Shown in pieces: positions 1,598 to 35,451 of a stretch of DNA of 35,451 nucleotides. The notes under the pieces were generated by a model. The model was not told the origin of the DNA. It saw only the letters and a list, made by a program, of their open reading frames with translations, and did not search any database. This DNA is from a virus. Each line of letters opens with the position of its first letter. Positions within the stretch are counted from its first letter, which is position 1. The translations under genes were made by a program, and so were the position numbers. The stretch is taken from positions 1 to 35,451 of IMG/VR virus record IMGVR_UViG_3300021061_000042; one strand, written 5' to 3'.

Positions 1598-2235
1598 TGC
1601 CGCGCACCCAAGCCCGGAAGGCGTACCTCGAGTACCGCAAACTCGTGACCCGCGATCGCGACGCCGAGGATCAGCGCCGGCGCAACGAGGACGCCGCCTT
1701 GATGCGCGCGTATCGCGAGATCGCGCGCGGCAACCCCGTTATCGACCTGCCGCACACCATGCGCGCCGCCGGTCTCGGTGCAGACTTCTACCCGAAGCTC
1801 GCCATCGGCCGGGCCGACAAGGCGCACTGCTGGGTGGAGATGTTCGCCGGCGGCGGGGCGGTGTTCACCGGCTACGACCCTGGTAAGTATTACCGCGGTC
1901 GCCCTGCGGCATCGACCCGTGCCGAACTGCCCGCTGGCACGTTTGAGACCTGGTCTACGCGCTGGAACAACGAGCGGAACACCGCCCAATACGTGAATCG
2001 CCCCAGTGATTGGTCACGAAAGGCGAAGGCCCTCACGCCGACGGTGCCCGCGGAGTTGCGTCCGAAGGCGAGCCTTGAGCGGTTCTGCATCTTGTGGGAG
2101 GCGGTGTGGACGCGCGAAGCGCCCCGCGATCCGATGCTTCTGAAGCCGCTCGGTGGACCGTTCTACGCCGTCGTCGCCGTGTGGGACCTCACCGAGCTTG
2201 AGCGTGCCGTGCTGCGCGGCCGCATCGGCGAGTGA
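1576..2235 (+). CDS. Unknown protein, 219 aa
   Basis: An ATG at 1576 is preceded by a strong Shine-Dalgarno sequence (AGGAGG near 1566-1571) and the gene overlaps the helicase end by 22 nt. The first ~70 residues are charged and helical (RKLVTRDRDAEDQRRRNED). The middle is rich in aromatic and glycine residues (HCWVEMFAGGGAVFTGYDPG), and the C-terminal part contains FCILWEAVWTREAPRDPM. No recognised motif or membrane segment is visible. It lies between the helicase and the packaging block and ends right at the first copy of the intergenic repeat. Start and coding status are well supported. The function is unknown. Confidence 0.75.
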   Translation: MHAVTLVMPRTQARKAYLEYRKLVTRDRDAEDQRRRNEDAALMRAYREIARGNPVIDLPHTMRAAGLGADFYPKLAIGRADKAHCWVEMFAGGGAVFTGYDPGKYYRGRPAASTRAELPAGTFETWSTRWNNERNTAQYVNRPSDWSRKAKALTPTVPAELRPKASLERFCILWEAVWTREAPRDPMLLKPLGGPFYAVVAVWDLTELERAVLRGRIGE

Positions 2236-2276
2236 CCGTGTAATCGTTTGCGCCCGCCGACTCAACCATGCACTCT
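2233..2276 (+). repeat. Intergenic element, copy 1 (diverged)
   Basis: This is the first of three related intergenic elements (the others are at 4937-4989 and 7810-7860). The shared core is ACCGTGTAATCG, then TTGCGCC, then CTCAACC. This copy is the most diverged: its right half carries a CGCCGA insertion and the arm of the small hairpin is weaker. It begins at the stop codon of the upstream gene and ends at the start codon of the next. It stands at the head of the terminase sub-block. Its function is unknown; a shared regulatory site is an inference. Confidence 0.6.
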
Positions 2277-2570
2277 GATGTGGACGCCGTGAGATTCGAC
2301 GACGACGGCGATCGGCCCGCCCACGACGGCCGCATGGTCCGCAGAGTGCTGCGCGCCCTCAAACAGCCGCGCACCATCGCCGACGTCGCGGCGGCGCTCA
2401 GGTGGCCCTGGAAAACCGCGCACTCGTGGGTGCACTACCTGCTGCGGACCGGGCGCGTCGTGAAGGTCGGCACGAAGCCGGGCGGCCGTCGCGCCGGCGT
2501 CTATCAGCGGTCGTACCAGCGCGCGGCCAGCTCGCGGACGCTGAAAGTCATTCCCAAGGAGCGGTTGTGA
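2268..2570 (+). CDS. Winged-helix/HTH-like DNA-binding protein
   Basis: A 100-residue basic protein. Residues ~28-62 (VLRALKQPRTIADVAAALRW, then AHSWVHYLLRTGRVVKVG) look like a winged helix: a helix-turn-helix with TIADVAAAL as the first helix, followed by a recognition helix and a GRVV wing strand. The tail is Arg-rich. It immediately follows repeat copy 1 and is two genes upstream of the candidate small terminase, so it could be a late-gene regulator or a DNA-recognition partner of packaging. The upstream sequence shows no strong Shine-Dalgarno because the repeat occupies it. The fold is inferred from pattern only. Confidence 0.65.
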   Translation: MHSDVDAVRFDDDGDRPAHDGRMVRRVLRALKQPRTIADVAAALRWPWKTAHSWVHYLLRTGRVVKVGTKPGGRRAGVYQRSYQRAASSRTLKVIPKERL

Positions 2571-2785
2571 TTCTGGTGCTGCGCGCGGAGTTGTTCGAGG
2601 GTGATGACACCGGCACGCGGCTGCAGGCGCGCATCGACGCCGGCGAAAAGCCGTTCGCTGCGTGGGTTATCGACCTGGGCCGCATTGAGGAGGATCGTGC
2701 AGATTTGCTGCGGCGCTGTCTGCACCCGGCGATGAACGTCCTCGCTCGGCCGATCGAGCAGGCGATCGACAGTTTTCAAAAGTAG
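2567..2785 (+). CDS. Unknown small protein, 72 aa
   Basis: A GTG start at 2567 overlaps the upstream stop (GTGA), with a Shine-Dalgarno AAGGAG at 2556-2561, giving VILVLRAELFEGDDTG and ending in QAIDSFQK. The protein is acidic and probably alpha/beta, with a single cysteine in LLRRCLHPAMN. No family is recognised. Translational coupling to the winged-helix gene and the position just before the terminase genes suggest co-expression with packaging functions. Confidence 0.6.
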   Translation: MILVLRAELFEGDDTGTRLQARIDAGEKPFAAWVIDLGRIEEDRADLLRRCLHPAMNVLARPIEQAIDSFQK

Positions 2786-2797
2786 AGCGATCTAGAC

Positions 2798-3082
2798 ATG
2801 AAGGGCCAGAAGACCGGCGGCCGTCGCAAAGGCACGCCGAATAAAGCGACCGCCGACGTGAAAGCCGCGGCTGCGAAGCACTCCGACGAGGCGATCAAGA
2901 CGCTCGTCGCGATCATGAAGAACCCGAAGGCCGACGACCGCGCGCGCATCGCCGCCGCGAAGGAGATCCTCGATCGCGCCCACGGCAAGGCCCCGCAAGC
3001 GATCACCGGGCCCGAGGGCGGGGACCTCTCGATGGTCATCAAGAAGATCGTCCACGTGCACGAAGATGGCACGCCGGCGTAA
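2798..3082 (+). CDS. Candidate terminase small subunit / DNA-binding protein
   Basis: A 94-residue protein starting KTGGRRKGTPNKATADVK, the Gly/Arg/Lys 'GRRKGTPNK' N-terminus seen in many small phage proteins encoded directly before terminase. A helical body follows (ALVAIMKNPKADD-type segment, then RIAAAKEILDRAHGKAPQA). The gene overlaps the large terminase start by 17 nt. From position and size I infer a small terminase subunit or accessory DNA-recognition protein. The sequence alone does not show the usual HTH clearly, so a conserved phage protein of unknown role remains possible. Confidence 0.6.
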   Translation: MKGQKTGGRRKGTPNKATADVKAAAAKHSDEAIKTLVAIMKNPKADDRARIAAAKEILDRAHGKAPQAITGPEGGDLSMVIKKIVHVHEDGTPA

Positions 3083-4508
3083 GGCCGCCGCGGCTACGCT
3101 GCCGCCGCCGGCCGACGACGAGTGCCGCATGCACTGGCGCGGCCAGCAGTCGGTCGCGCTGAAGGACACCACGCGCGAGCTCGACGTCGAGGGCGCGCTC
3201 CGCGCCAGCAAGACGACCATCTGCCTCTGGAAGGAGCTCAACGCCTATCTCAATCACCCCGGCATGCACGGCATGTTGTGTCGCTGGACCGACGACGCGA
3301 CGCATTCACTCCTGAAACCGGTGTGGCGCGCGATCTGCGCGAAGGCCGGCGTCGCGCTCAAGTGGCACGCCGAGGAGCAGTACGACGAGCTCCCGAACAA
3401 GGCGCGCGTCTACATCCGCGGACTGAAGACGCAGGATCAGACGCTGCGCTATGCGAAGTTCCGCGGCCTGACGTTGTCACGGGTCTACGTCGACCAGGCC
3501 GAGGAGCTGCCGCACGACGTGTACCTCGAGCTCGCGGCGCGGCTCTCGCAGAAGGGCTTTCCGCACCAGATCACCATCTCGCCGAACGCGGTCGAGGAAA
3601 CGCACTGGATCGCCCGTGAGTTCCCGACCGACAATCGTTTTCTCCCGCAGCGCAAGTACATCTCCCTGAGCGTGCACGACAATGCCCACAACCTGGCGCC
3701 GGAGGTCATCCCGACGCTTGAGCGGCTCTATCCGCCGTCGCACCCGAAGCACCGCACAATGGTGCTCGGCAAGCGCGGGCTGAACGTCATCGGCGAGCCG
3801 GTCTACAAGGGCGCGTTCGAGCGGAAGCGGCACGAGGGCCCGGCGGAGTTCGACGCGACGCTGCGGCTGCTGATGGCGCTCGACTTCGGCAAGCACCATC
3901 CCTGCGTCGTGTTCAAACAGATCAGCGCGTTCGGCCAGGCGCGGTTCCTCGCCGGCATCCTGGGGCAGTCGCTCTATCTCGACGCGTTCATGGATCTGGT
4001 GCTGCACTACCGCGCGCTCTGGTTCCCGGGCGCGATCGAGATCGCCGAGTGCTGCGACCCGGCCGGCGCGACCGACACGAGTCACGGCACGAAGGGGGCG
4101 GTCGCCACGCTGCGTGAGAAGGGCGTCCACCCGCGGTCCGTGCCCGACAGCAACTCCCCGATCGTGCGCCTGGCGATGATCGAGCGCATGGCGGGGCAGA
4201 TGCGCAAGCGGGCGGCGGACGGGAGCGAGGCCTTCCTCGTGTCGAACAGTGATCGCTGGCTGCGCATCTCGGCCGACAACGTCGTCGTGGATCGGTTCCT
4301 TACCGACGGGTTCGAGGCCGGCTACGTCTGGTCGCCGCACACGGTGAGCGTCAACAACAAGCCCGTGCGGGTGCCGAAGAAGGACGGCTGGTATGAGCAC
4401 GGCCAGAACTGCGCGGAGTACCTCGAGGTGAACTTCGGGGCGCCGTGGAAGAAGCCGGTCGAGGAGGAAGAGCCCGAGCCGTATCGGCCGGTGAGCCCAT
4501 GGGGATGA
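3066..4508 (+). CDS. terL: Terminase large subunit (packaging ATPase/nuclease)
   Basis: A 480-residue protein with both TerL domains. The ATPase has a deviant Walker A, EGALRASKTT (residues 42-51), a Walker B-type YVDQAEE (141-147) with DQAEE in place of the usual DExxE, and a coupling-like segment ISPNAVEETHW (171-181). The C-terminal nuclease begins at LMALDFGKHHPC, with D273 as a likely metal ligand, and continues with AECCDPAG (D331). TerL drives DNA into the prohead through the portal and cuts the concatemer. Length is typical. The start ATG overlaps the upstream gene, and the stop overlaps the next ATG (ATGA). Downstream portal, scaffold and coat genes agree with this role. Confidence 0.93.
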   Translation: MARRRKAAAATLPPPADDECRMHWRGQQSVALKDTTRELDVEGALRASKTTICLWKELNAYLNHPGMHGMLCRWTDDATHSLLKPVWRAICAKAGVALKWHAEEQYDELPNKARVYIRGLKTQDQTLRYAKFRGLTLSRVYVDQAEELPHDVYLELAARLSQKGFPHQITISPNAVEETHWIAREFPTDNRFLPQRKYISLSVHDNAHNLAPEVIPTLERLYPPSHPKHRTMVLGKRGLNVIGEPVYKGAFERKRHEGPAEFDATLRLLMALDFGKHHPCVVFKQISAFGQARFLAGILGQSLYLDAFMDLVLHYRALWFPGAIEIAECCDPAGATDTSHGTKGAVATLREKGVHPRSVPDSNSPIVRLAMIERMAGQMRKRAADGSEAFLVSNSDRWLRISADNVVVDRFLTDGFEAGYVWSPHTVSVNNKPVRVPKKDGWYEHGQNCAEYLEVNFGAPWKKPVEEEEPEPYRPVSPWG

Positions 4509-4951
4509 CGCGTGACGACGTGACGCTCGCGCTGTTCCTCGAACGGGCTTTTCGCGAGCAGCTGATTGACGCCCGCCTGGCGGCGCTGGCGCGGGAGTGG
4601 GCAGAGACCGAAGCGGACCCGCCGGCGGATCCGGCCATGGCGCGCCTCGTCTGGCTCTCGCGACAACTGCGCGCCAGCTACCTCAAAACAGCGGCGAACG
4701 CTCTCGTCGGCAACCTGTACAGCGTGCCGGCCGACAAACTGCGGCCTGGCGACGAATTTGCGCTCGGCGGACGGCGATGGCGAGTGATCGAGCAACACCC
4801 GCCGACCGAAGATGCGCGCGGGCAGCGCCAAGTGAACGGCATCTTGCGCTACGAGCTCGCCGGTGACGGGTCTGGGTCGCAGTTCGTGCCAGAGGTGCGC
4901 GACTACTTTCAGCACATCCAGACGATCGTCGACCCCGACTCAACCGTGTAA
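4505..4951 (+). CDS. Unknown protein, 148 aa
   Basis: ATG at 4505 overlaps the terminase stop as ATGA; an in-frame ATG at 4499 is an alternative. The N-terminal third is helical (LALFLERAFREQLIDARLAAL). The second half looks like a small beta domain (LRPGDEFALGGRRWRVIEQ). The last residues, DSTV plus the TAA stop, are written by the second copy of the intergenic repeat, so the element may have redefined the gene's 3' end. No family is recognised. Position between terminase and portal is typical for small head-assembly or accessory genes. Confidence 0.7.
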   Translation: MTRDDVTLALFLERAFREQLIDARLAALAREWAETEADPPADPAMARLVWLSRQLRASYLKTAANALVGNLYSVPADKLRPGDEFALGGRRWRVIEQHPPTEDARGQRQVNGILRYELAGDGSGSQFVPEVRDYFQHIQTIVDPDSTV

Positions 4952-4989
4952 TCGGTTGCGCCGATCTCAACCATTCGCGCATTCTGCTG
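4937..4989 (+). repeat. Intergenic element, copy 2
   Basis: Reads GACTCAACCGTGTAATCGG then TTGCGCCGATCTCAACC, followed by ATTC, CGCAT and CTGCT blocks also found in copy 3. It can fold two ways: AACCG-TGTAAT-CGGTT, or CGGTTG pairing with the downstream CAACC. It contains the stop codon of the upstream gene and ends just before the GTG of the next. It stands at the head of the portal sub-block. Similarity to copy 3 is near-perfect over ~33 nt and recognisable over ~50. Confidence 0.75.
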
Positions 4990-4992
4990 CGC

Positions 4993-5160
4993 GTGACCCC
5001 CACCGAGCGCACGGTGCACGACTTCTGCGCCCGCGTCGCCTTCGCCCGCGTCGCCCGCGAGCTCGCCGACCAGCAGCGCGAAGCCGCTGAGGCCGCACGG
5101 GACTGGCCGCACGGCGCCGCGCTCGTCGCCGTCATCCCCGCCCCGCAGGGGCACGCCTGA
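4993..5160 (+). CDS. Unknown small protein, 55 aa
   Basis: A GTG start at 4993 gives VTPTERTVHDFCARVAFARV and continues as an Ala/Arg-rich helix, ending PAPQGHA. Its TGA forms a TGATG overlap with the next gene, and codons end in G or C throughout. There is no clear Shine-Dalgarno, because the intergenic repeat lies directly upstream. No function is recognised. It may be a small helical protein or a leader peptide linked to the repeat. Coding is likely but not certain. Confidence 0.45.
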   Translation: MTPTERTVHDFCARVAFARVARELADQQREAAEAARDWPHGAALVAVIPAPQGHA

Positions 5161-5426
5161 TGGTCCCCACCGCTGGCTTCAAGCCGAACGCCGCCGGTCT
5201 CTACGTCCCCGAAGAGCACGCCCGCGCCCGCGAGGTGTGGACGTTCGACGAATGGCGCGCGATCGAGAAGGCCAGCAAGCTGCTGAAGGGCCGCGCGCTG
5301 GCGCTCGTGTTCCGGTGCGAGGCGCCGGCGTGTCCGGATCCGACGATTCGGCGTGAGCCGCTGCTCGGCGGCGAGATCCGGCTCCGGTGCGGGTGTAAGG
5401 ATCGCATCTTCACGCGGCACGTCTGA
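5160..5426 (+). CDS. Small protein with C-terminal cysteine pairs, 88 aa
   Basis: ATG at 5160 overlaps the previous stop (TGATG). The protein starts MVPTAGFKPNAAGLYVPEEH, has a helical middle (WRAIEKASKLLKGRALAL), and ends with cysteines arranged like a zinc ribbon: FRCEAPAC followed ~20 residues later by RCGCKDRIF. Zinc binding is an inference from this spacing. It is two nucleotides upstream of the portal gene and presumably co-translated with it. I do not recognise a named family. Confidence 0.65.
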   Translation: MVPTAGFKPNAAGLYVPEEHARAREVWTFDEWRAIEKASKLLKGRALALVFRCEAPACPDPTIRREPLLGGEIRLRCGCKDRIFTRHV

Positions 5427-5428
5427 CC

Positions 5429-7588
5429 ATGGCCGACACCGACGACGGCGCGCTGAAGGAACTCCGCGAGCGCTTCGAATACGCGCATAACGAGTGGCAG
5501 CCGATCCGCGAGGAAGGCGCCAAGGACATGCGCTACATCGCCGGCGACCCGTGGGATCCGAAGGATCGCCGGGCGCGCGAGGAGGCGAAGCGCCCGGTGC
5601 TCTCGCTCGACGAGCTCGGGCAGTACGTCAATCAGCTCGTGAACGACGTCCGCGCGTCGAAGCGCGCGATCCGGATCACGGCGACCGGCAACGGCGCCAA
5701 CGACGCCCTCGCCAACGCGCGCGCGAACCTGATTCGCCAGATCGAATACAAGTCGCACGCGCAGATGGCGTACACCACCGCATTCGAGAACGCGGTCCAG
5801 CGTGGGTACGGGTTTCTGCGGGTCTCCGCCACGTACGCGCAGCGCACCGTGGACAAACCCACCGCCCGCAGCTTCGACCAGGAGCTGCGCATCGATCCGA
5901 TCGTTAATCCCGACCTGGTGACGCCGGACCCTGACGCGCTCCGTCCGGACATGAGCGATCAGCGGTACGCCTTCGTGCGCGAGGCCTGGCTGCACGAGGA
6001 CTTCAAGCGCAACCCGCTGTTTCGCGGCGCGACGATCAAGAACTTCTCGGGCAACAACGTCTTCAGTGAGGCGGGGCCGCTCTGGCTGAACGACAAGAAA
6101 GTGTGGGTCGCGGAGGCCTGGGCTATCGAGTCCAAGCCGCGCACGCTGGTGCTGTTGCCGCATCCGACACATCCAAAGGACGGGGAACCGCAGGCGGTCT
6201 GGCGCGACACGATGACCGATGCCGACTGGCGCGCGGAGAAAGGTCGCGTCATCCGCGAGCGTGAGGTCGACGCGCCGTACGTCTGTCAAAAGCTCACCAA
6301 CGGTCTCGAGATCTTCAAAACGGTCGACTGGCCAGGCGAGTACATCCCGATCGTCGCGTGCCTCGGCAAAGTGATCTGGGTCGACGAAGGGAATGGTCCG
6401 AAACGCAAGGTTCTGTCGCTCATTCGCCTGGCCCGCGATCCCTACATGCTCTACTGCTACTACCGCTCATGCGAGGCGGAGCTCGTAGGTATGACGCCGA
6501 AGTTCCCGTACTTCGCGTACGAGGGGCAACTCACGCCCGCGCAGTTGAAGAACCTCCAGAAGTCGCTGCACGAGCCAGTCGCCGTCGTCACGGTGAAGCC
6601 GACCGTCGAGGGTGTGCCGGCAGGGACCGTGCTGTCATTCCCTGCGCGGCAACCGTACGAGCCGCCGATTGCCGGCCTCGAGGTCGGCGCTGAAGCGGCT
6701 CGCCGGGCCATCCAGTCGGCGATGGGTAGCGGGTTTCTCCCGACGCAGGCCCAGCGGCGCAACGAAAAGAGCGGCGTCGCACTCCGGCAGATCGAGACGA
6801 GCGCGCAAAAGGGCTCGTATCACTTCATCGACCACTACGAGGACGCGCTCCGGCACTGCGGCGTCGTCTTGAACGACCTGATTCCCCACTACTACGACAC
6901 GGCGCGCGATATTCACGTGCGCAAGCCGGACGACACGCCGATCCAGCTGCGCATCAACGATCCGAACACCGTCGACGAGGAGTCGCAGCAGCCCATCATC
7001 CTGACCGAGGGCGATTACGACGTGACGATCTCGACCGGCCCCAGCTTCGAGAGCGAGCGTGAGCAGGCGAGCACATTCGCCGACACGCTCATCGGCGCGC
7101 GGCCGGAGGTCTTCGCGCTCATCGGCGACCTCGTCATCAAGTTGAAGAACCTCGGGCCGATTGGCGACGAGATGGCCAAACGGCTCGAGACGATGCTGCC
7201 GGCGCCCGTCAAGCAGGCGAAGGACGGCGGCCAGGTGCTGCCGCCGCAGGTCCAGCAGCAGCTCGCCCAGGCACAGCAGATGGTCGAAGCGGCCATGGCG
7301 AAGGTCCAGGAGCTGCAGCGCATCATCGACACGGATGCCGTCAAGGGCGAGCGCGACGTGCAGCTCGCGCAGCTGAAGGCGCACCTCGAACTGGGCCTGC
7401 AGCAGCTGAAAGGCGAGCAGGCACTCGAACAGCTCCGCGAGAAGGGCGCGATCGCCGACCGCGACCGCGAAGACAGCCAGGCGCACGAGCTCGGGATGCA
7501 CGCCGCCGACGCCGCGCAGGCGGTCAGCCAGGCCGAACGCGCCGCGGCGCTGCGTCCCATGCCCGGGCCCGCCGGCGCCGGGCTGTGA
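5429..7588 (+). CDS. Portal protein, P22 type
   Basis: A 719-residue protein resembling the P22 gp1 portal family, the dodecameric ring at one head vertex through which DNA enters and leaves. The N-terminus (FEYAHNEWQPIREEGAKDMRY, then GDPW and RPVLSLDELGQYVNQLVND) is the characteristic entry to this family. The core contains the long clip and wing region. The C-terminal ~130 residues are Gln/Ala-rich coiled coil (QVQQQLAQAQQMVEAAMAK and beyond), equivalent to the helical barrel of P22 portal. Length matches P22 gp1 (725 residues). It follows terminase and precedes scaffold and coat, the P22 order. Confidence 0.9.
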   Translation: MADTDDGALKELRERFEYAHNEWQPIREEGAKDMRYIAGDPWDPKDRRAREEAKRPVLSLDELGQYVNQLVNDVRASKRAIRITATGNGANDALANARANLIRQIEYKSHAQMAYTTAFENAVQRGYGFLRVSATYAQRTVDKPTARSFDQELRIDPIVNPDLVTPDPDALRPDMSDQRYAFVREAWLHEDFKRNPLFRGATIKNFSGNNVFSEAGPLWLNDKKVWVAEAWAIESKPRTLVLLPHPTHPKDGEPQAVWRDTMTDADWRAEKGRVIREREVDAPYVCQKLTNGLEIFKTVDWPGEYIPIVACLGKVIWVDEGNGPKRKVLSLIRLARDPYMLYCYYRSCEAELVGMTPKFPYFAYEGQLTPAQLKNLQKSLHEPVAVVTVKPTVEGVPAGTVLSFPARQPYEPPIAGLEVGAEAARRAIQSAMGSGFLPTQAQRRNEKSGVALRQIETSAQKGSYHFIDHYEDALRHCGVVLNDLIPHYYDTARDIHVRKPDDTPIQLRINDPNTVDEESQQPIILTEGDYDVTISTGPSFESEREQASTFADTLIGARPEVFALIGDLVIKLKNLGPIGDEMAKRLETMLPAPVKQAKDGGQVLPPQVQQQLAQAQQMVEAAMAKVQELQRIIDTDAVKGERDVQLAQLKAHLELGLQQLKGEQALEQLREKGAIADRDREDSQAHELGMHAADAAQAVSQAERAAALRPMPGPAGAGL

Positions 7589-7589
7589 G

Positions 7590-7805
7590 ATGGCGACGAT
7601 CCCGTACGACCCGAACGCCGTCGCGTATCGGGACGCGCGGGGCTGTCACGGCAAGGTGAAGTTCCCCTCGAAGAAAAACGCGCGCGCCCGGGCGCGGCTG
7701 CTCGGCGGGTCGCTCGACGCCTACAAGTGCGTGCTCTGCCGCGGCTGGCACATCGGCCACGGCCGATCCCGGAACCCGCATCGGGCGCCGAACGCGCCGT
7801 TCTGA
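7590..7805 (+). CDS. Small zinc-ribbon-like protein, 71 aa
   Basis: ATG at 7590 lies one nucleotide after the portal stop. The sequence has C29-H30, a basic segment (KVKFPSKKNARARARLLGG) and then YKCVLCRGWHIGHG. The 'Y-x-C-x2-C-x3-H-x2-H' ending is seen in many tiny phage and bacterial proteins. A zinc-bound fold is likely; the role is unknown. It ends at the third copy of the intergenic repeat and is the last gene before the non-coding structured region. Confidence 0.7.
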   Translation: MATIPYDPNAVAYRDARGCHGKVKFPSKKNARARARLLGGSLDAYKCVLCRGWHIGHGRSRNPHRAPNAPF

Positions 7806-7809
7806 GGCC

Positions 7810-7860
7810 GACTCGACCGTGTAATCGGTTGCGCCGATCTCAACCGTTCCGCATACTGCT
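7810..7860 (+). repeat. Intergenic element, copy 3
   Basis: Nearly identical to copy 2 over GACTC(A/G)ACCGTGTAATCGG and TTGCGCCGATCTCAACC, continuing with GTTC, CGCATACTGCT. Here the second hairpin is best: CGGTTG (7826-7831) pairs with CAACCG (7841-7846), competing with the ACCG-TGTAAT-CGGT hairpin. It begins 5 nt after a stop codon and opens the non-coding region before the scaffold and coat genes. A regulatory role (promoter, operator or RNA switch) is inferred from its repeated location. Confidence 0.75.
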
Positions 7861-7873
7861 CAGCGGTTTGACC

Positions 7874-8020
7874 GTCGTGCCGCCGGAGTCGCGCCCGGTG
7901 TAGCGGGTTCCCCAACCTGCACGACGCGCACAAGGGGATCACCACGGAATTGGGGCCGTGTGACGCACGCGAGCGATCGCGGAGCTGCACACGGCCTTTT
8001 TCGTTGTCCGGGGTGATCCC
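7874..8020 (+). ncRNA. Nested-hairpin non-coding region between portal-block and scaffold genes
   Basis: Between 7806 and 8038 no convincing gene is visible on either strand, but three sets of long inverted repeats are. GTCGTGC (7874-7880) pairs with GCACGAC (7919-7925). GGGATCACC (7935-7943) pairs with GGTGATCCC (8012-8020). Inside the second lies the terminator hairpin 7954-7996. The left hairpin encloses a GCGGG/CCTGC stem with loop TTCCCCAA that recalls a T-arm, although the 52-nt span is too short for a tRNA. Possible roles are a leader or attenuator controlling coat expression, a stable small RNA, or a processed mRNA end. Structure is seen; function is not known. Confidence 0.45.
7954..8001 (+). 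terminator. Intrinsic terminator before the scaffold gene
   Basis: GGCCGTGTG (7954-7962) pairs perfectly with CACACGGCC (7988-7996), immediately followed by TTTTT (7997-8001). This is a textbook rho-independent terminator with a 25-nt loop that can itself fold (GCGA/TCGC). It would end transcripts from the terminase-portal block, so scaffold and coat would need read-through, antitermination or a promoter within the preceding element. Confidence 0.75.
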
Positions 8021-8038
8021 GCTCTTCACCGGAGGGAC

Positions 8039-9130
8039 ATGGACACCGAGACCACCACGGGACCCGACGCCCCAGCCGCCGCCTCGTCACCGGCACCCGT
8101 CGACGGCTCGACGTACCTCGCCTCGCTGACGCGTGAACAGCGTCAGGAATGGAACCGGACCGGGACGCTCCCGGACGCGACGACCCCTGCGGACTCGTCA
8201 TCCGCCCAGCCTGGCGACCAGGCCGCGTCAACGGACGCGTCACGTGCGGCCGCCTCGGAACCGGCCAACCCCGCAGACAAGCAGAAAGCCCCGCGCCCCG
8301 ACGTAAAGGCGCGCAACGCGCAACTCGATGGCGAGATCGCTGAGCTGAAAGAGAAGCTGCGCCTGCGCGCCACGCTCCGCGAAGAGCTCGCCCGCACCGA
8401 CCGGCCGACCCCTGACGCGCGCACCTCGGACTCGTCACCCGAGCGGCCGAAGACGACGCGGGAAGAGTGGCAGCGCTATCGCGCGATGCCGGACGCTCCG
8501 CAGCCGGACAAGTTCGAGCACTACGAGGACTTCACGGCCGCGATGAGCGTGTTCATCGCCGACAAGCGCTTCGAGGAGCGCGAGCAGGCTTCGCGCGTCG
8601 ACGCGTCGCAGCGCGCGCACGTCGAGCGCGTGCAGCGCACCGTCGCCGACGCGAACAAGCGGATCGAGGAGCACTGCCAGGCGGATCCCGCGTTCCGCGA
8701 CAAGGTGCACCCGGACCTGCTCGAGATCGTGCCGGCCGGCCTCCTCGCGCTGCAGCCGAACGCCGCGATCGGGCCGCACAACGTTGTGGCGCAGGAAATC
8801 CTCGAGTCGAAGGTCATGCCGCAGCTGTTCGAGTACTTCTCGACGCCAGACGGCATTCAGGAATGGGCCTCGTTGATGGCGCTGCCGCCGACGAAGCTGC
8901 TCCTGGGGTTCGGACGGATCGAAGCGCGCTTTCTGCCTGCTGCGGGCACAGCGGCGGCCGGCGAGAAGAAGCCAGCCGCCAAAACGGTCACGACAGCCCC
9001 GGAACCGCCGACGACCCTCGGCAAGAAGGCGACCGATCCGGTCGATCAGGCCGAGAGCGCGGTGAAGAACGGGGACTTTCGCGCATACAAGCGCCTCGCC
9101 GACCGCGAGGACCTGAACGCGCGTAGGTAG
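8039..9130 (+). CDS. Scaffolding-like head assembly protein
   Basis: A 363-residue, highly charged, Ala/Pro/Thr-rich protein directly upstream of the coat gene. The N-terminus is disordered and acidic. A coiled-coil segment (QLDGEIAELKEKLRLRATLRE) is at ~100-120, a helical core (HYEDFTAAMSVFIADKRFEEREQ) at ~160-185, and the C-terminus is a short basic helix-rich tail (GDFRAYKRLADREDLNARR) like the coat-binding end of scaffolds. Scaffolds direct coat assembly into proheads and then leave. Length is close to P22 gp8 (303) with an extended N-terminus. Shine-Dalgarno GGAGGG lies a few bases before ATG 8039. The call rests on composition and position. Confidence 0.75.
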   Translation: MDTETTTGPDAPAAASSPAPVDGSTYLASLTREQRQEWNRTGTLPDATTPADSSSAQPGDQAASTDASRAAASEPANPADKQKAPRPDVKARNAQLDGEIAELKEKLRLRATLREELARTDRPTPDARTSDSSPERPKTTREEWQRYRAMPDAPQPDKFEHYEDFTAAMSVFIADKRFEEREQASRVDASQRAHVERVQRTVADANKRIEEHCQADPAFRDKVHPDLLEIVPAGLLALQPNAAIGPHNVVAQEILESKVMPQLFEYFSTPDGIQEWASLMALPPTKLLLGFGRIEARFLPAAGTAAAGEKKPAAKTVTTAPEPPTTLGKKATDPVDQAESAVKNGDFRAYKRLADREDLNARR

Positions 9131-9132
9131 CC

Positions 9133-10383
9133 ATGCCAGTCACCAACAACTTCAAGAAGGTCGATTACGTCACGATGGAGACCCTCCGGCTGTTCATGCA
9201 CAGCTCGGAGATCTTCGCGAACATGCGGCACGACCACGAGGAGGACTTCAAAAAGGAGTTCGCCGTGGGCGATCGCATCCGCGTGAAATTCCCGTGGCGG
9301 CCTGTCATCCGCGACGGGTTCACGTACACGCCGCAGAATATCGAGCGCCTCGAAACGACCATCGTCGTCGATCAGCCCTTCGGCATCGACTTCGAATGGG
9401 ACACGATCGACAAGCTCCTGAACATGGAGCGCGGCGAAGAGCGCGTGAAGAAGGAGTACCTGCGGCCGGCGGCGCTGTATCTCGCGGCCGAAGCCGACAA
9501 GCGCGCCGCGGCGTTCGCCTACAAGAACACCGGCAACATCACGGGGCAGCTCGGGACCAACCCGACGACGTTCGATGCGACGTCCGCCGCCGTGCGCCAG
9601 CGGTTCGTCGAAATGAGCTCGCTCTCCGACGACCAGGGCATCTACGTGCCGCCGGCCGTGATGCGCGCCATCAAGGGCGGCTCCGACGGCAACCTGGCCC
9701 GGTTCGGGCCGGTCGAGGACATCAAGAAGCTGTACCGCCAGGGCGTCGTCGGCAAAGCGGACGGCTTCGAGTGGACCGAGTCGATGTCCCTGAAGTCACA
9801 CACCGCCGGCACGTGGGCGGGTGCCGTCACGTTGAACGGCGCGGTCGCCAACGGCGCCACGTCGCTCGCCGTCACCTGCACGACCGGCGACACGTTCAAG
9901 GAAGGCGACGTCATCGGCCTGGGCAGCGTGTATCGCGTGAACCCCGTGACGCGCGAGCGCACCGAGTCGGCGAACACGATGACGGTGACGGTGGCGGCGG
10001 ACACCGTCGGCGTCATCTCGGCGGCCACGGTGCAGATCAAAGAGACGCTGTACTTCAGCGGCAACTACCAGAACATCGACGCGCAGCCGGCCAATGGCGC
10101 CACGCTGACGCTCTTCCCGGGCACGACGTCCCCGAACGGCAAATCTGGCAAGCAGGGCCTCGCGTTCACGCGTGACGCCTTCGCCGGCATCAGCCTGCCG
10201 CTCCCCATGCCGAAGAACGAGGAGCTCGTCTCGCAGACGACCGACCCGGACACCGGCATCTCCATCGCGTTCATCCGCAGCTTCGACGCGGTCAACCGCA
10301 AATGGGTGAATCGCTTCGACGTGCTCCTCGGCTTCGGCCGGCTGCACTGCGAGCTCGCGGCGATGCGCATCCTCTGCGCCTAG
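9133..10383 (+). CDS. Major coat protein, P22 gp5-like
   Basis: A 416-residue protein matching the P22 coat family in length (430) and features: an N-arm (NNFKKVDYVTMETLRLF), a segment with DRIRVKFPWRP and ERLETTIVVDQPFGIDFEW, an alpha-rich middle (RPAALYLAAEADKRAAAFAY), a beta-rich region with Thr/Val-rich strands (~225-320), and a C-terminal strand-rich end (KWVNRFDVLLGFGRLHCELA). It forms the icosahedral shell. It starts 2 nt after the scaffold stop, so the two are co-translated. HK97-fold membership follows from the family. Confidence 0.88.
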   Translation: MPVTNNFKKVDYVTMETLRLFMHSSEIFANMRHDHEEDFKKEFAVGDRIRVKFPWRPVIRDGFTYTPQNIERLETTIVVDQPFGIDFEWDTIDKLLNMERGEERVKKEYLRPAALYLAAEADKRAAAFAYKNTGNITGQLGTNPTTFDATSAAVRQRFVEMSSLSDDQGIYVPPAVMRAIKGGSDGNLARFGPVEDIKKLYRQGVVGKADGFEWTESMSLKSHTAGTWAGAVTLNGAVANGATSLAVTCTTGDTFKEGDVIGLGSVYRVNPVTRERTESANTMTVTVAADTVGVISAATVQIKETLYFSGNYQNIDAQPANGATLTLFPGTTSPNGKSGKQGLAFTRDAFAGISLPLPMPKNEELVSQTTDPDTGISIAFIRSFDAVNRKWVNRFDVLLGFGRLHCELAAMRILCA

Positions 10384-28924: not shown

Positions 28925-29746
28925 TCAGCGCGACACGCCGGATAACCGCGCGACGAGCACCCCGATGCCGGGCGTGCCGCTCACCGTGACGTTGTACGTG
29001 ACGGTTCCCGCCATGCTGTTACCACTGACGCGCGTGCTCCACGTACTGATCGCCGCAGTGAGCGTGCCGGACGTCGCCGTGCCCTGAAGGGTAATCGTGC
29101 CGTCATTGCCAATGACGCCGGACACAGGGCCGGTGACTTGGCCGAACTCCACTGTGCCGGCGAGGCTCGCGCCGTTTTGTGAAAACGATAGGCGAATCGG
29201 CAAGAGCGACCCCGGCGGGAACACTCCTCGCTGCGTGCTGCACAGCAGGTCCTGCACCGAGCCGGTGCCATCACAGCGCTCGACGACGTAGTTGCCGCGC
29301 CAGGTGCCGGCGGCATTGAACAGCGCTGTCGCGGTGACTGGAATTGTGTTCGTACCGCTGGTGTGATCGGCGTCGATGGTGATCGTCCCCGAGAACGATC
29401 CGCCGCTCTCGGGCGCGAAGGTGATCGTGATGACCTGCGACCCGCCAGGCCCGATGGTTCCGCTCGTCCAGCTCGTAAAGAAGTGATTCGCAAGCCCACC
29501 CGTGATCGACAGCCCGCGGACGGTCAAGGTGGCGGTGCCGCTGTTGGCCAACGTAATCGTCAGATCGCGCGAGGCACCCACGAATACCTGGCCAAAGGTC
29601 AACGAGCCGGTGATCGCGAGGATTCGGGTCTGCGCTGGCGGGGGCTGCTGGGTGCTCGGCCCGGTGGGGGTGTTCGCCGGCGAGCTGCTGCTACCGCACG
29701 CTGCGGCGAAGATCGCCAACATCAAGGTCGCCGTCCGGGTCATCAT
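28925..29746 (-). CDS. Lipoprotein with choice-of-anchor D (ASH-type) domain; lysogenic 'moron'
   Basis: A 273-residue protein with Shine-Dalgarno AGGAG before tandem ATGs. The N-terminus TATLMLAIFAAACGSSSS has a lipobox with Cys17, then a Pro/Thr linker. Residues ~45-145 form one ASH/choice-of-anchor D domain: GSLTFGQVFVGASRDLTITL, NSGTATLTVRGLSITGG and GGSFSGTITIDADHTSG with PVTATALF. The C-terminal ~125 residues are a second beta domain with two cysteines (ERCDG, LLCSTQ). It is a surface lipoprotein unlike phage structural genes and lies between integrase and repressor, a typical site for genes expressed in lysogens. Function is unknown; surface alteration or exclusion is inferred. Confidence 0.7.
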   Translation of the reverse strand: MMTRTATLMLAIFAAACGSSSSPANTPTGPSTQQPPPAQTRILAITGSLTFGQVFVGASRDLTITLANSGTATLTVRGLSITGGLANHFFTSWTSGTIGPGGSQVITITFAPESGGSFSGTITIDADHTSGTNTIPVTATALFNAAGTWRGNYVVERCDGTGSVQDLLCSTQRGVFPPGSLLPIRLSFSQNGASLAGTVEFGQVTGPVSGVIGNDGTITLQGTATSGTLTAAISTWSTRVSGNSMAGTVTYNVTVSGTPGIGVLVARLSGVSR

Positions 29747-29914: not shown

Positions 29915-30403
29915 TCAACCCCTCCGAGATCTTCTCTGTCGTTCGCGGCTATCGCGCGCTGTCACCCGAGCATCGGCGGTTCGTTCGAATGACGATTGCC
30001 TTTGCGCTTCGGCGGTCTCGTTCATCCGCACCGCGTGACGAATCAGATCCTTTAGATCGTCTGGGCCACGATCGAACGCCCGCGCGATTTCCGTCGCTTC
30101 TTCCGAGATCGGCGTCTCCGTCGGCGCGGCGTTCACGAGGCCACCCGTAAGTTCGTTGGCGACGAGCATGCAGTGCTGAACAAAATCCAGCCGATACACC
30201 TGACAGAGACCCCAGAGAATCGCCATGTTGGGGGGGCGCCCATGCTCGTATTCCGAAACCGTGCGTTTGCCCGTCTTGAACCCGAGGGCTTGTAGCCGCT
30301 CAGCAACCTGATCGAGTGAGTTGCGTTTCCCTAGCAAAGTCTCTCGGTAGCCGCGGAGCCTGTCACCGAACTGCGGCGTCCGCGCGCCGCGCACGACTGG
30401 CAT
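29915..30403 (-). CDS. XRE-family repressor-like protein
   Basis: A 162-residue protein starting MPVVRGARTP. Residues ~11-65 carry an XRE helix-turn-helix: FGDRLRGYRETLLGKRNSLD, then QVAERLQALGFKTGKRTVSE, then YEHGRPPNMAILWGLCQVY. The C-terminal part is helical and charged without a LexA-like protease motif, so self-cleavage is not evident. An in-frame GTG at 30469 would add 22 residues but would run through the divergent promoter; I prefer ATG 30403. Divergent to the Cro-like gene across an operator region, it is the likely lysogeny repressor. The flanking 29747-29914 gap shows no gene, and the local base composition is more AT-rich than the late genes. Confidence 0.75.
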   Translation of the reverse strand: MPVVRGARTPQFGDRLRGYRETLLGKRNSLDQVAERLQALGFKTGKRTVSEYEHGRPPNMAILWGLCQVYRLDFVQHCMLVANELTGGLVNAAPTETPISEEATEIARAFDRGPDDLKDLIRHAVRMNETAEAQRQSSFERTADARVTARDSRERQRRSRRG

Positions 30404-30430
30404 TTTGACCGGCAGTCTAGCGCCGCATTC

Positions 30431-30510
30431 GTGCTCAAAGAGAAACGCGGTTAAAAAAGGTGTTGACACCCAAGCACGTCTGATTTAGGGTTTGTGCTTA
30501 CATGAGCACA
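30431..30510 (+). promoter_or_regulatory. Operator region with repeated GTGCTY / RAGCAC half-sites
   Basis: Four copies of the half-site GTGCT(T/C) or its complement occur between the repressor and Cro-like genes: GTGCTC (30431-30436), AAGCAC (30472-30477), GTGCTT (30494-30499) and GAGCAC (30504-30509). TGTGCT-TACATG-AGCACA (30493-30510) is a perfect 6+6 palindrome spanning the Cro-like start codon, and AAGCAC with GTGCTT forms another, with a 16-nt gap over the -10 box. This is the expected geometry for repressor/Cro competition at a divergent promoter. Confidence 0.65.
30463..30491 (+). promoter_or_regulatory. Sigma-70-type promoter for the Cro-like gene
   Basis: Perfect -35 TTGACA (30463-30468), 17-nt spacer, then TAGGGT (30486-30491) as a -10 with T1, A2 and T6 conserved. 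Transcription would begin near 30498-30502, at or just before the ATG at 30502. The gene has no Shine-Dalgarno, so a leaderless mRNA is likely. Operator half-sites flank both boxes. Confidence 0.65.
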
Positions 30511-30717
30511 GACACGCGGTTCGACGTTGACAAGTTGGTTGACGACCTCGCCGCACGCGGCTGGTTGCCCACCGACCTGGCCCGCGCCGCCCAACTGTCG
30601 GACATGACCATTTCCCGGGTGCTCAAGGGGCAACGCCATAACCCACGCACCTGGAAGCAGATCGCCGACGCCCTCGGCAAGAACATCCGCCGCTACACGA
30701 TCCGGAGGGCCGCCTAA
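30502..30717 (+). CDS. Cro-like HTH regulator
   Basis: A 71-residue protein with a small XRE-type helix-turn-helix: FDVDKLVDDLAARGWLPTDL, ARAAQLSDMTISRVLKGQRH and NPRTWKQIADALGKNIRRY. It lies divergent from the repressor, right behind a strong promoter, and heads the early gene cluster. It would shut off repressor synthesis and favour lytic growth. It appears leaderless. The stop TAA overlaps the next ATG. Confidence 0.75.
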   Translation: MSTDTRFDVDKLVDDLAARGWLPTDLARAAQLSDMTISRVLKGQRHNPRTWKQIADALGKNIRRYTIRRAA

Positions 30718-34334: not shown

Positions 34335-35451
34335 TCGTCGTCCGCACACAAGCTGAGTTCGACGCCGCGATCGCCGCCGGCGGCCGCGAGATCACCATCG
34401 ACGGTGACGTCACCATCGTCGTCACCAGCGCCGACGAGCTGCTGCTGCAGGTCGTCGGCAGCTCGCAGCCGCGCGTCGTGGCGAGGGACAGCTCGCAGCC
34501 GCGCGTCGTGGCGAGGGACAGCTCGCAGCCGCGCGTCGAGGCGTGGGGCAGCTCGCAGCCGCGCGTCGAGGCGAGGGAGAGCTCGCAGCCGCGCGTCGAG
34601 GCGTGGGAGAGCTCGCAGCCGCGCGTCGAGGCGTGGGACAGCTCGCAGCCGCGCGTCGAGGCGTGGGAGAGCTCGCAGCCGCGCGTCGAGGCGTGGGGCA
34701 GCTCGCAGCCGCGCGTCGTGGCGAGGGACAGCTCGCAGCCGCGCGTCGTGGCGAGGGACAGCTCGCAGCCGCGCGTCGAGGCGTGGGGCAGCTCGCAGCC
34801 GCGCGTCGAGGCGAGGGAGAGCTCGCAGCCGCGCGTCGAGGCGTGGGGCAGCTCGCAGCCGCGCGTCGAGGCGTGGGAGAGCTCGCAGCCGCGCGTCGTG
34901 GCGAGGGACAGCTCGCAGCCGCGCGTCGAGGCGTGGGGCAGCTCGCAGCCGCGCGTCGAGGCGAGGGAGAGCTCGCAGCCGCGCGTCGAGGCGTGGGGCA
35001 GCTCGCAGCCGCGCGTCGTGGCGAGGGACAGCTCGCAGCCGCGCGTCGAGGCGAGGGGCTACGTCCAGCTGTCGGTCAGCGGCCGCACCACGGTTACCGC
35101 GGGCCCGCAGTGCTCGGTCCTGATTGAGGGCGCAGCGCCGCAGGTCGAGGGCGGACAGCAGACGCGGCTCGAGCGCAGCACCGCAGCGGAATGGTGCGCG
35201 TTCTATGGGCTCCCGATCGTCGACGGCGTGGTCACGCTCTACAAGGCAGTCCGTCACGACTTTGCGAGCAACCACGATCCGGCGTTTTTCTGGCGGCCTG
35301 GCACGCTGCCGTCGGTGCCGCGGATGGACGCGCACGAGTGCGGCGTCGGGCTGCACTTCTGCCCGTCACCGGGCCACGCGCGCGCGTTCTATAACGCCGA
35401 GGATGCGCGGTATATCGCCTGCCCCGTGAGCGTCGACGACATTCGCGTGCA
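34331..35451 (+). CDS. Decapeptide-repeat protein (3' end outside window)
   Basis: At least 373 residues, cut by the right edge. GTG 34331 overlaps the previous stop (GTGA). Residues 1-43 form a beta-rich cap (VRTQAEFDAAIAAGGREITI then DGDVTIVVTSADELLLQ). Residues ~44-243 are twenty decapeptides SSQPRV(E/V)A(W/R)x, which probably stack as a beta solenoid. After a closing YVQLSVSGRTTVTAG segment, a globular C-terminal domain starts with LYKAVRHDFASNHDPAFFWR then GTLPSV, ECGVGLHFCPSPGHARAFYN and YIACPVSVDDIRV, which I associate with the DUF7666-type domain found behind such repeats. Function is unknown. It lies in the early recombination cluster, not with tail genes. Confidence 0.7.
   Translation, partial: MIVVRTQAEFDAAIAAGGREITIDGDVTIVVTSADELLLQVVGSSQPRVVARDSSQPRVVARDSSQPRVEAWGSSQPRVEARESSQPRVEAWESSQPRVEAWDSSQPRVEAWESSQPRVEAWGSSQPRVVARDSSQPRVVARDSSQPRVEAWGSSQPRVEARESSQPRVEAWGSSQPRVEAWESSQPRVVARDSSQPRVEAWGSSQPRVEARESSQPRVEAWGSSQPRVVARDSSQPRVEARGYVQLSVSGRTTVTAGPQCSVLIEGAAPQVEGGQQTRLERSTAAEWCAFYGLPIVDGVVTLYKAVRHDFASNHDPAFFWRPGTLPSVPRMDAHECGVGLHFCPSPGHARAFYNAEDARYIACPVSVDDIRV
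34460..35059 (+). repeat. Twenty 30-bp direct repeats within the decapeptide-repeat gene
   Basis: The unit AGCTCGCAGCCGCGCGTCG + (T/A)GGCG(A/T)GGG.. occurs 20 times without spacers, in strict 30-bp register (GCTCGCAGCC starts at 34461, 34491 ... 35031). Variation is limited to a few positions, giving the unit endings VARD, EAWG, EARE, EAWE, EAWD and a final EARG. Units 1-4 (VARD VARD EAWG EARE) recur as units 9-12, i.e. after 240 bp, which indicates block duplication. The frame is kept because 30 is a multiple of three. Confidence 0.95.

Follow-up and report, generated by a model that had tools for sequence, protein, structure and literature searches.

Promoter-like repeats at the heads of three late-gene blocks in a P22-type temperate phage, and a candidate phage-encoded regulator

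The window analysed here, the whole 35,451-base source record of an IMG/VR virus, carries P22-type portal and coat genes together with scaffold, terminase and integrase genes, and judging by the encoded integrase the phage is temperate. Three promoter-like elements on the + strand head its late-gene blocks. P1 (2235-2276) stands at the head of a block made up of g3 (2268-2570) and the genes for the small and large terminase subunits (terS and terL, 2798-4508, + strand). Read from the ATG at 2268, g3 encodes 100 amino acids, its predicted real start being the GTG at 2289, and its product is a predicted winged helix. P2 (4943-4985) heads the portal block, in which an open reading frame with a GTG start (4993-5161) lies directly behind the element and overlaps the next gene by TGATG; the P22-type portal gene is found at 5429-7588 (PF16510, E 1e-107). 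P3 (7816-7857) stands ahead of the scaffold and P22-type coat genes (8039-10383, with the coat at 9133-10383; PF11651). The genes of all three blocks are on the + strand, and the assignment of the blocks to terminase, P22-type portal, and scaffold plus P22-type coat made in an earlier first-pass annotation was correct.

The three elements share the 20-mer ACCGTGTAATCGNTTGCGCC, which occurs exactly three times, each time on the + strand, at 2235-2254, 4943-4962 and 7816-7835, with no further copy at up to three mismatches in the whole 35-kb record (shuffles give 0.02). Copies 2 and 3 are 95% identical across 42 nt (4935-4976 and 7808-7849). In most copies the stop codon of the preceding gene falls within the element or close to it, which is to be expected in compact phage genomes; in the window these are TGA 2233-2235 at copy 1, TAA 4949-4951 within copy 2 and TGA 7803-7805 just 5' of copy 3. 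The first-pass annotation had described a three-copy element at stop codons and at the heads of late blocks, and it is borne out here as a set of exact, one-strand repeats, the conserved unit being longer than the repeat described there because a hexamer 19-21 nt downstream, which had been missed, belongs to it. In P1 the parts are a dyad ACCG-TGTAAT-CGTT (2235-2248), a core (2240-2250) ending in TTG (2248-2250) and a -10-like CACTCT (2271-2276); in P2, ACCG-TGTAAT-CGGT (4943-4956), core 4948-4958, TTG 4956-4958 and CATTCT (4980-4985); and in P3, ACCG-TGTAAT-CGGT (7816-7829), core 7821-7831, TTG 7829-7831 and CATACT (7852-7857).

The survey covered ~140 loci related in their portal or coat genes, and the stretch before the portal was compared with the stretch between portal and scaffold, a search blind to the letters of the window. 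Besides the window, this comparison yielded exact repeats in L007 (20 nt, CTACGGGGTAATCGGTTGCA at 4020 and 6556), L030 (18 nt, GAAGCGTGAAATTGCTGG at 1394 and 3587) and L105 (20 nt, CTAGAGTGCGTAATTGCTTG at 9815 and 12154, its only two occurrences in a 41-kb record), compared with 12-14 nt at most for the longest exact repeat in shuffled flanks. The letters of the repeat vary from phage to phage around a common core, GTAATYGSTTG (in L030 the variant GAAATTGCTGG), and in 1.54 Mb of sequence from relatives the mismatch-free core occurs six times on the + strand, in every case at portal/scaffold boundaries. A diverged third copy was located by synteny in L105 at the head of the terminase block (~6231-6291; GACCGTGTAATTTTACTTGC...TAGAAT-6-ATG), where the fit needs a longer core and a 22-nt distance; thus, P1, P2 and P3 are present in both the window and L105. 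A fifth carrier, L161, was chosen for a portal 64% identical to that of L105 and was fetched once the -10 rule described below had been seen; its site, GTAATTGCTTG, 20 nt, CACACT, 8 nt and the scaffold ATG, fits that rule exactly. The P1 region of L007, L030 and L161 and the P2 region of L161 lie beyond contig ends.

In the coat tree, the window, L030, L105 and L161 form one clade (support 100/100), and L007 lies outside it on a long branch. Every boundary covered in this closest clade bears the element, so the absence from close relatives that the first-pass annotation had named as a counter-indication is not seen. Since four of the five carriers belong to one clade, part of the conservation is shared descent. 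In most relatives (~100 loci) no repeat can be recognised where the carriers have theirs, and these phages must be regulated otherwise. The spacing of ~2.7 and 2.9 kb, whose evenness had earlier been thought notable, is not conserved: the portal-to-scaffold copy distance is 2.54, 2.19 and 2.34 kb in relatives and L105 P1 lies ~3.5 kb from its P2, so that the values in the window reflect block length only. Wider searches gave no match among named phage records and, in a genome collection, one distant prophage-like locus, L082, which lacks the element; in a bipartite motif scan of a viral collection, among the matches listed, only L105 has related portal or scaffold genes, and L223 has one distant coat match. 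Exact core matches in L004-L006 are coding coincidences within another phage's open reading frame and were set aside; also set aside were other matches in viral contigs that have no repeats at the matching places, and an extra match in the L161 contig (5576) that lies inside a long opposite-strand open reading frame. In L161, an open reading frame with a DPPYG motif (~815-1460; DNA methyltransferase-like) has been inserted after the portal and ahead of P3, leaving the element next to the scaffold.

The hexamers at the nine core-aligned sites are CACTCT, CATTCT, CATACT, GACCAT, CACACT, TAGACT, CACCAT, CAGGAT and CACACT. All nine, and all ten once L161 is included, have A at position 2 and T at position 6 and lie 19-21 nt past the core, most of them conforming to CANNCT. 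The pattern was noticed by eye and then tested: NANNMT at an offset of 19-21 is present at ten of ten sites, a count reached by none of 5,000 shuffles (null maximum 6). In L007, L030 and L105, the bases between core and hexamer are not common to a phage's two copies. In leave-one-phage-out models all ten sites rank at the top of their own record, with P1 third in the window. The TTG and the hexamer are placed so that 16-18 nt separate a -35 from a -10 hexamer, which is sigma70 spacing. TTG is found at eight of ten sites (TGG in L030), the remainder of the -35 hexamer matches TTGACA poorly, position 1 of the -10 is mostly C rather than the usual T, and a standard sigma70 consensus scan did not call the sites. 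Given that C and the outcome of the scan, the promoters would need help. A sigma54 promoter (GG-N10-GC) was considered and rejected, the window copies having GT for GG.

Counted from the hexamer's first base, the start codon is 12, 12, 13, 14, 14, 14, 17, 18, 20, 36 and 187 nt away at the 11 sites (the start codon for L105 P3 being ATG 12208). Six of these fall at 12-14 nt, for which chance gives ~0.09 per site, and the GTG directly behind P2 is among the short distances, at 13 nt. Leaderless bacterial genes have ~12 nt from -10 to start codon (PMC3160421), and several of the mRNAs would therefore be leaderless; at P2, transcription is predicted to start at or near GTG 4993.

We consider it likely that P1, P2 and P3 are coordinated sigma70-type late promoters in which the -35 is overlapped by a phage-specific operator. 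The repetition of the element, its position, its conservation across phages, the spacing of the -10-like box and the start-codon distances are direct observations; from them we infer transcription initiation at P1-P3 and positive control. The suggestion in the first-pass annotation of a shared late-gene promoter or operator is accordingly retained, on account of the same boundaries, the -10-like box at fixed spacing and the prediction borne out in L161, and its RNA switch is not, for reasons given below. In such a circuit, host RNA polymerase of the sigma70 type would use -35 (TTG...) and -10 hexamers that are both weak and stand 16-18 nt apart, and a phage-specific two-fold box, the imperfect inner dyad ASYG-N6-YGST, would overlap the -35 with its centre near -43, close to a class II activator position. 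One phage protein, probably a small DNA-binding protein of the phage's own, would bind all copies and turn on the packaging (P1), portal (P2) and scaffold-coat (P3) blocks together.

A candidate for this protein is the product of g3, which lies directly behind P1 and ahead of the terminase genes in the window, L105 and L007. Homologues are found only in L105 and L007 (44% and 40%), the other two carriers whose contigs cover that region, and no notable match came from ~59 further relatives in which >4.2 kb precede the portal, several of them duplicate contigs; the co-occurrence of g3 with the element rests on three phages. The structural model has a mean pLDDT of 71 and an H-H-H-E-E order, and its best fold matches are winged helices of the MarR, PapI and ArsR types (E ~0.005). 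Pfam, PHROGs and NCBIfam give no family match of the RinA/Ltr type, and the cysteines of a CX2CX22CX4C zinc finger are absent. On this basis, g3 is a plausible but tentative choice as the binder and regulator of P1-P3, at a little less than an even chance. Were it the binder, g3 would be autoregulated since it sits behind P1: made from the P1 operon, it would act on all three sites and control its own operon. L007 lies outside the coat clade yet carries both the element and g3. The scaffold encoded directly behind its P3 is 42% identical to that of the window, nearly matching the 44-46% of clade members, and together these observations suggest that element and regulator have been inherited together.

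The same promoters could instead carry a repressor operator, leaving the late genes silent in the lysogen and expressed upon release. The integrase of this temperate phage, the Cro/CI-type HTH proteins encoded at 29915-30717 and the overlap of the box with the -35, which also suits repression, all fit that arrangement, but the poor match of -35 and -10 to consensus is better suited to an activator-dependent promoter, and g3 is the one HTH protein seen to track the element across phages, in a comparison that covered g3 alone. We consider repression improbable, if still the foremost alternative. That the sites are promoters read by an RNA polymerase or sigma factor which the phage itself encodes, and which has its own specificity, is very unlikely. 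Such specificity would explain why the sequence diverges phage by phage, and exact units of 18-20 nt are about the size of single-subunit polymerase promoters; however, a separate -10-like box at sigma70 spacing would not be expected, no sigma70 region 2 domain was found in the window or L105 (the two longest records, possibly partial; the control worked), and no phage polymerase is present among the window and L105 proteins scanned by Pfam.

An element acting in the transcript as a hairpin, processing site, antitermination site or translation control is about as unlikely. Window copy 2 can fold a 6-bp stem, and one pair flips from C-G to G-C between lineages, the halves of the dyad changing jointly (left C to G, right G to C) in what amounts to one event. 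Nevertheless, across the ten sites 80% of cells pair, which is within the shuffle control (55/500), as is the covariation that the first-pass annotation had proposed as a check (59/500); the outer pairs are broken at four of ten sites, and the copies are not predicted to form the same stems. Folded singly, they score no better, or just slightly better, than shuffles, and Rfam holds no match to the element. The two mutually exclusive hairpins described earlier thus reduce to at most the imperfect dyad, with no conserved RNA stem. The same symmetry would be expected of DNA bound by a dimer, and an operator of that kind accounts for the dyad no less well than an RNA stem does. Least probable of all is a recombination joint, or a mobile repeat, whose role is to mark module exchange and promote it. 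The terminase modules between copies do differ: the large terminases of the window (terminase genes, 2798-4508), L007 (2112-3524) and L105/L030 (8108-9592 in L105) give no mutual tblastn matches and represent at least three families, all of which have close relatives among phages that lack the element, and modules therefore change between fixed promoters. A small cysteine-bearing protein, g10, is likewise encoded before P3 in the window (7590-7805) but before P2 in L105 (9597-9818). The earlier suggestion of a joint thus has some foundation, but a joint is not needed, and the exchange of modules is not evidence that the element drives recombination. Against a joint, the sequence is particular to each phage, the element varies little in orientation or start-codon distance, the -10-like box persists where neighbouring bases do not, and the 35- and 41-kb records have no copies elsewhere.

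As coordinated late promoters, P1-P3 would work like several known late regulons, those of phages P2 and Mu and of the RinA/Ltr type, and by sequence they belong to none of them. P22 late transcription depends on Q antitermination from one late promoter, and although the portal and coat genes are homologous (PF16510, PF11651), the late region here contains three separate promoter-like sites. In phages P2 and 186, late promoters with TGT-N12-ACA, four of them in P2, are activated by Ogr/B (P4 delta), Ogr being a zinc-finger protein (PMC3931495). The likeness is that a temperate phage has several late operons which share a short dyad-like site at their heads and are switched on jointly by one small phage protein; here, in contrast, the box is ASYG-N6-YGST abutting the -35, the candidate is a winged helix rather than a zinc finger, and the Ogr-type TGT-N12-ACA (~-55) is absent from the aligned sites. 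In Mu, the late promoters lys, I, P and mom are activated by C (PMC4461284), an arrangement that likewise couples several late promoters to one phage activator; here, leaderless start-codon coupling is predicted in addition, and no Mu C-related activator was found in Pfam or PHROGs. In Firmicutes phages, RinA/Ltr/Alt, small proteins encoded just ahead of terminase, activate late transcription, and the promoters described for them have one main late promoter preceded by a number of direct repeats (PMC13123087). The similarity to g3 is one of position only, as here there are three promoters with one box each and g3 has no family match. The SAS/ESAS of cluster K mycobacteriophages (GGGATAGGAGCCC), which lie 3-7 bp before the start codons of non-structural genes and contain a Shine-Dalgarno core, are also short repeats that keep one orientation where genes begin and in some cases overlap the stop codon upstream (PMC3203893), but the present element differs in sequence, precedes structural genes, has no Shine-Dalgarno core and ends its own core ~33-56 nt before most starts.

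A more far-reaching proposal, which we regard as rather doubtful, is that this P22-like group exchanged a single-promoter late operon for a leaderless regulon of three promoters, with g3 as a new winged-helix activator, a box that co-diverged with it and packaging modules that can be swapped. If true, uncultured P22-like phages would gain a predicted late circuit in which the site and a candidate regulator are named and the transcript starts are predicted exactly, and fixed promoters could frame terminase modules of different families. The approach used here, in which relatives are compared at corresponding gene boundaries for short exact repeats with the letters left free, offers a simple route to finding such regulons in metagenomic phages.

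Between P3 and the scaffold, the window also has a nested hairpin with a U tract (7934-8021, + strand; fold z-score -3.25 for 7905-8040), a terminator or attenuator candidate with 9-nt outer arms GGGATCACC/GGTGATCCC and inner arms GGCCGTGTG..CACACGGCC-TTTTT. It is peculiar to the window; L030, L105 and L161 have no room there. Either P3 transcripts would be attenuated at this point, or the hairpin would stop upstream transcripts while transcription from P3 would somehow read through it. Elsewhere in the window, the - strand beside the integrase (28925-29746) encodes a protein with a HYDIN/ASPM-type Ig-like domain, possibly cargo, and near the right end of the record (34457-35059) about twenty 30-nt repeats lie head to tail in an open frame and would thus encode a repeated decapeptide.
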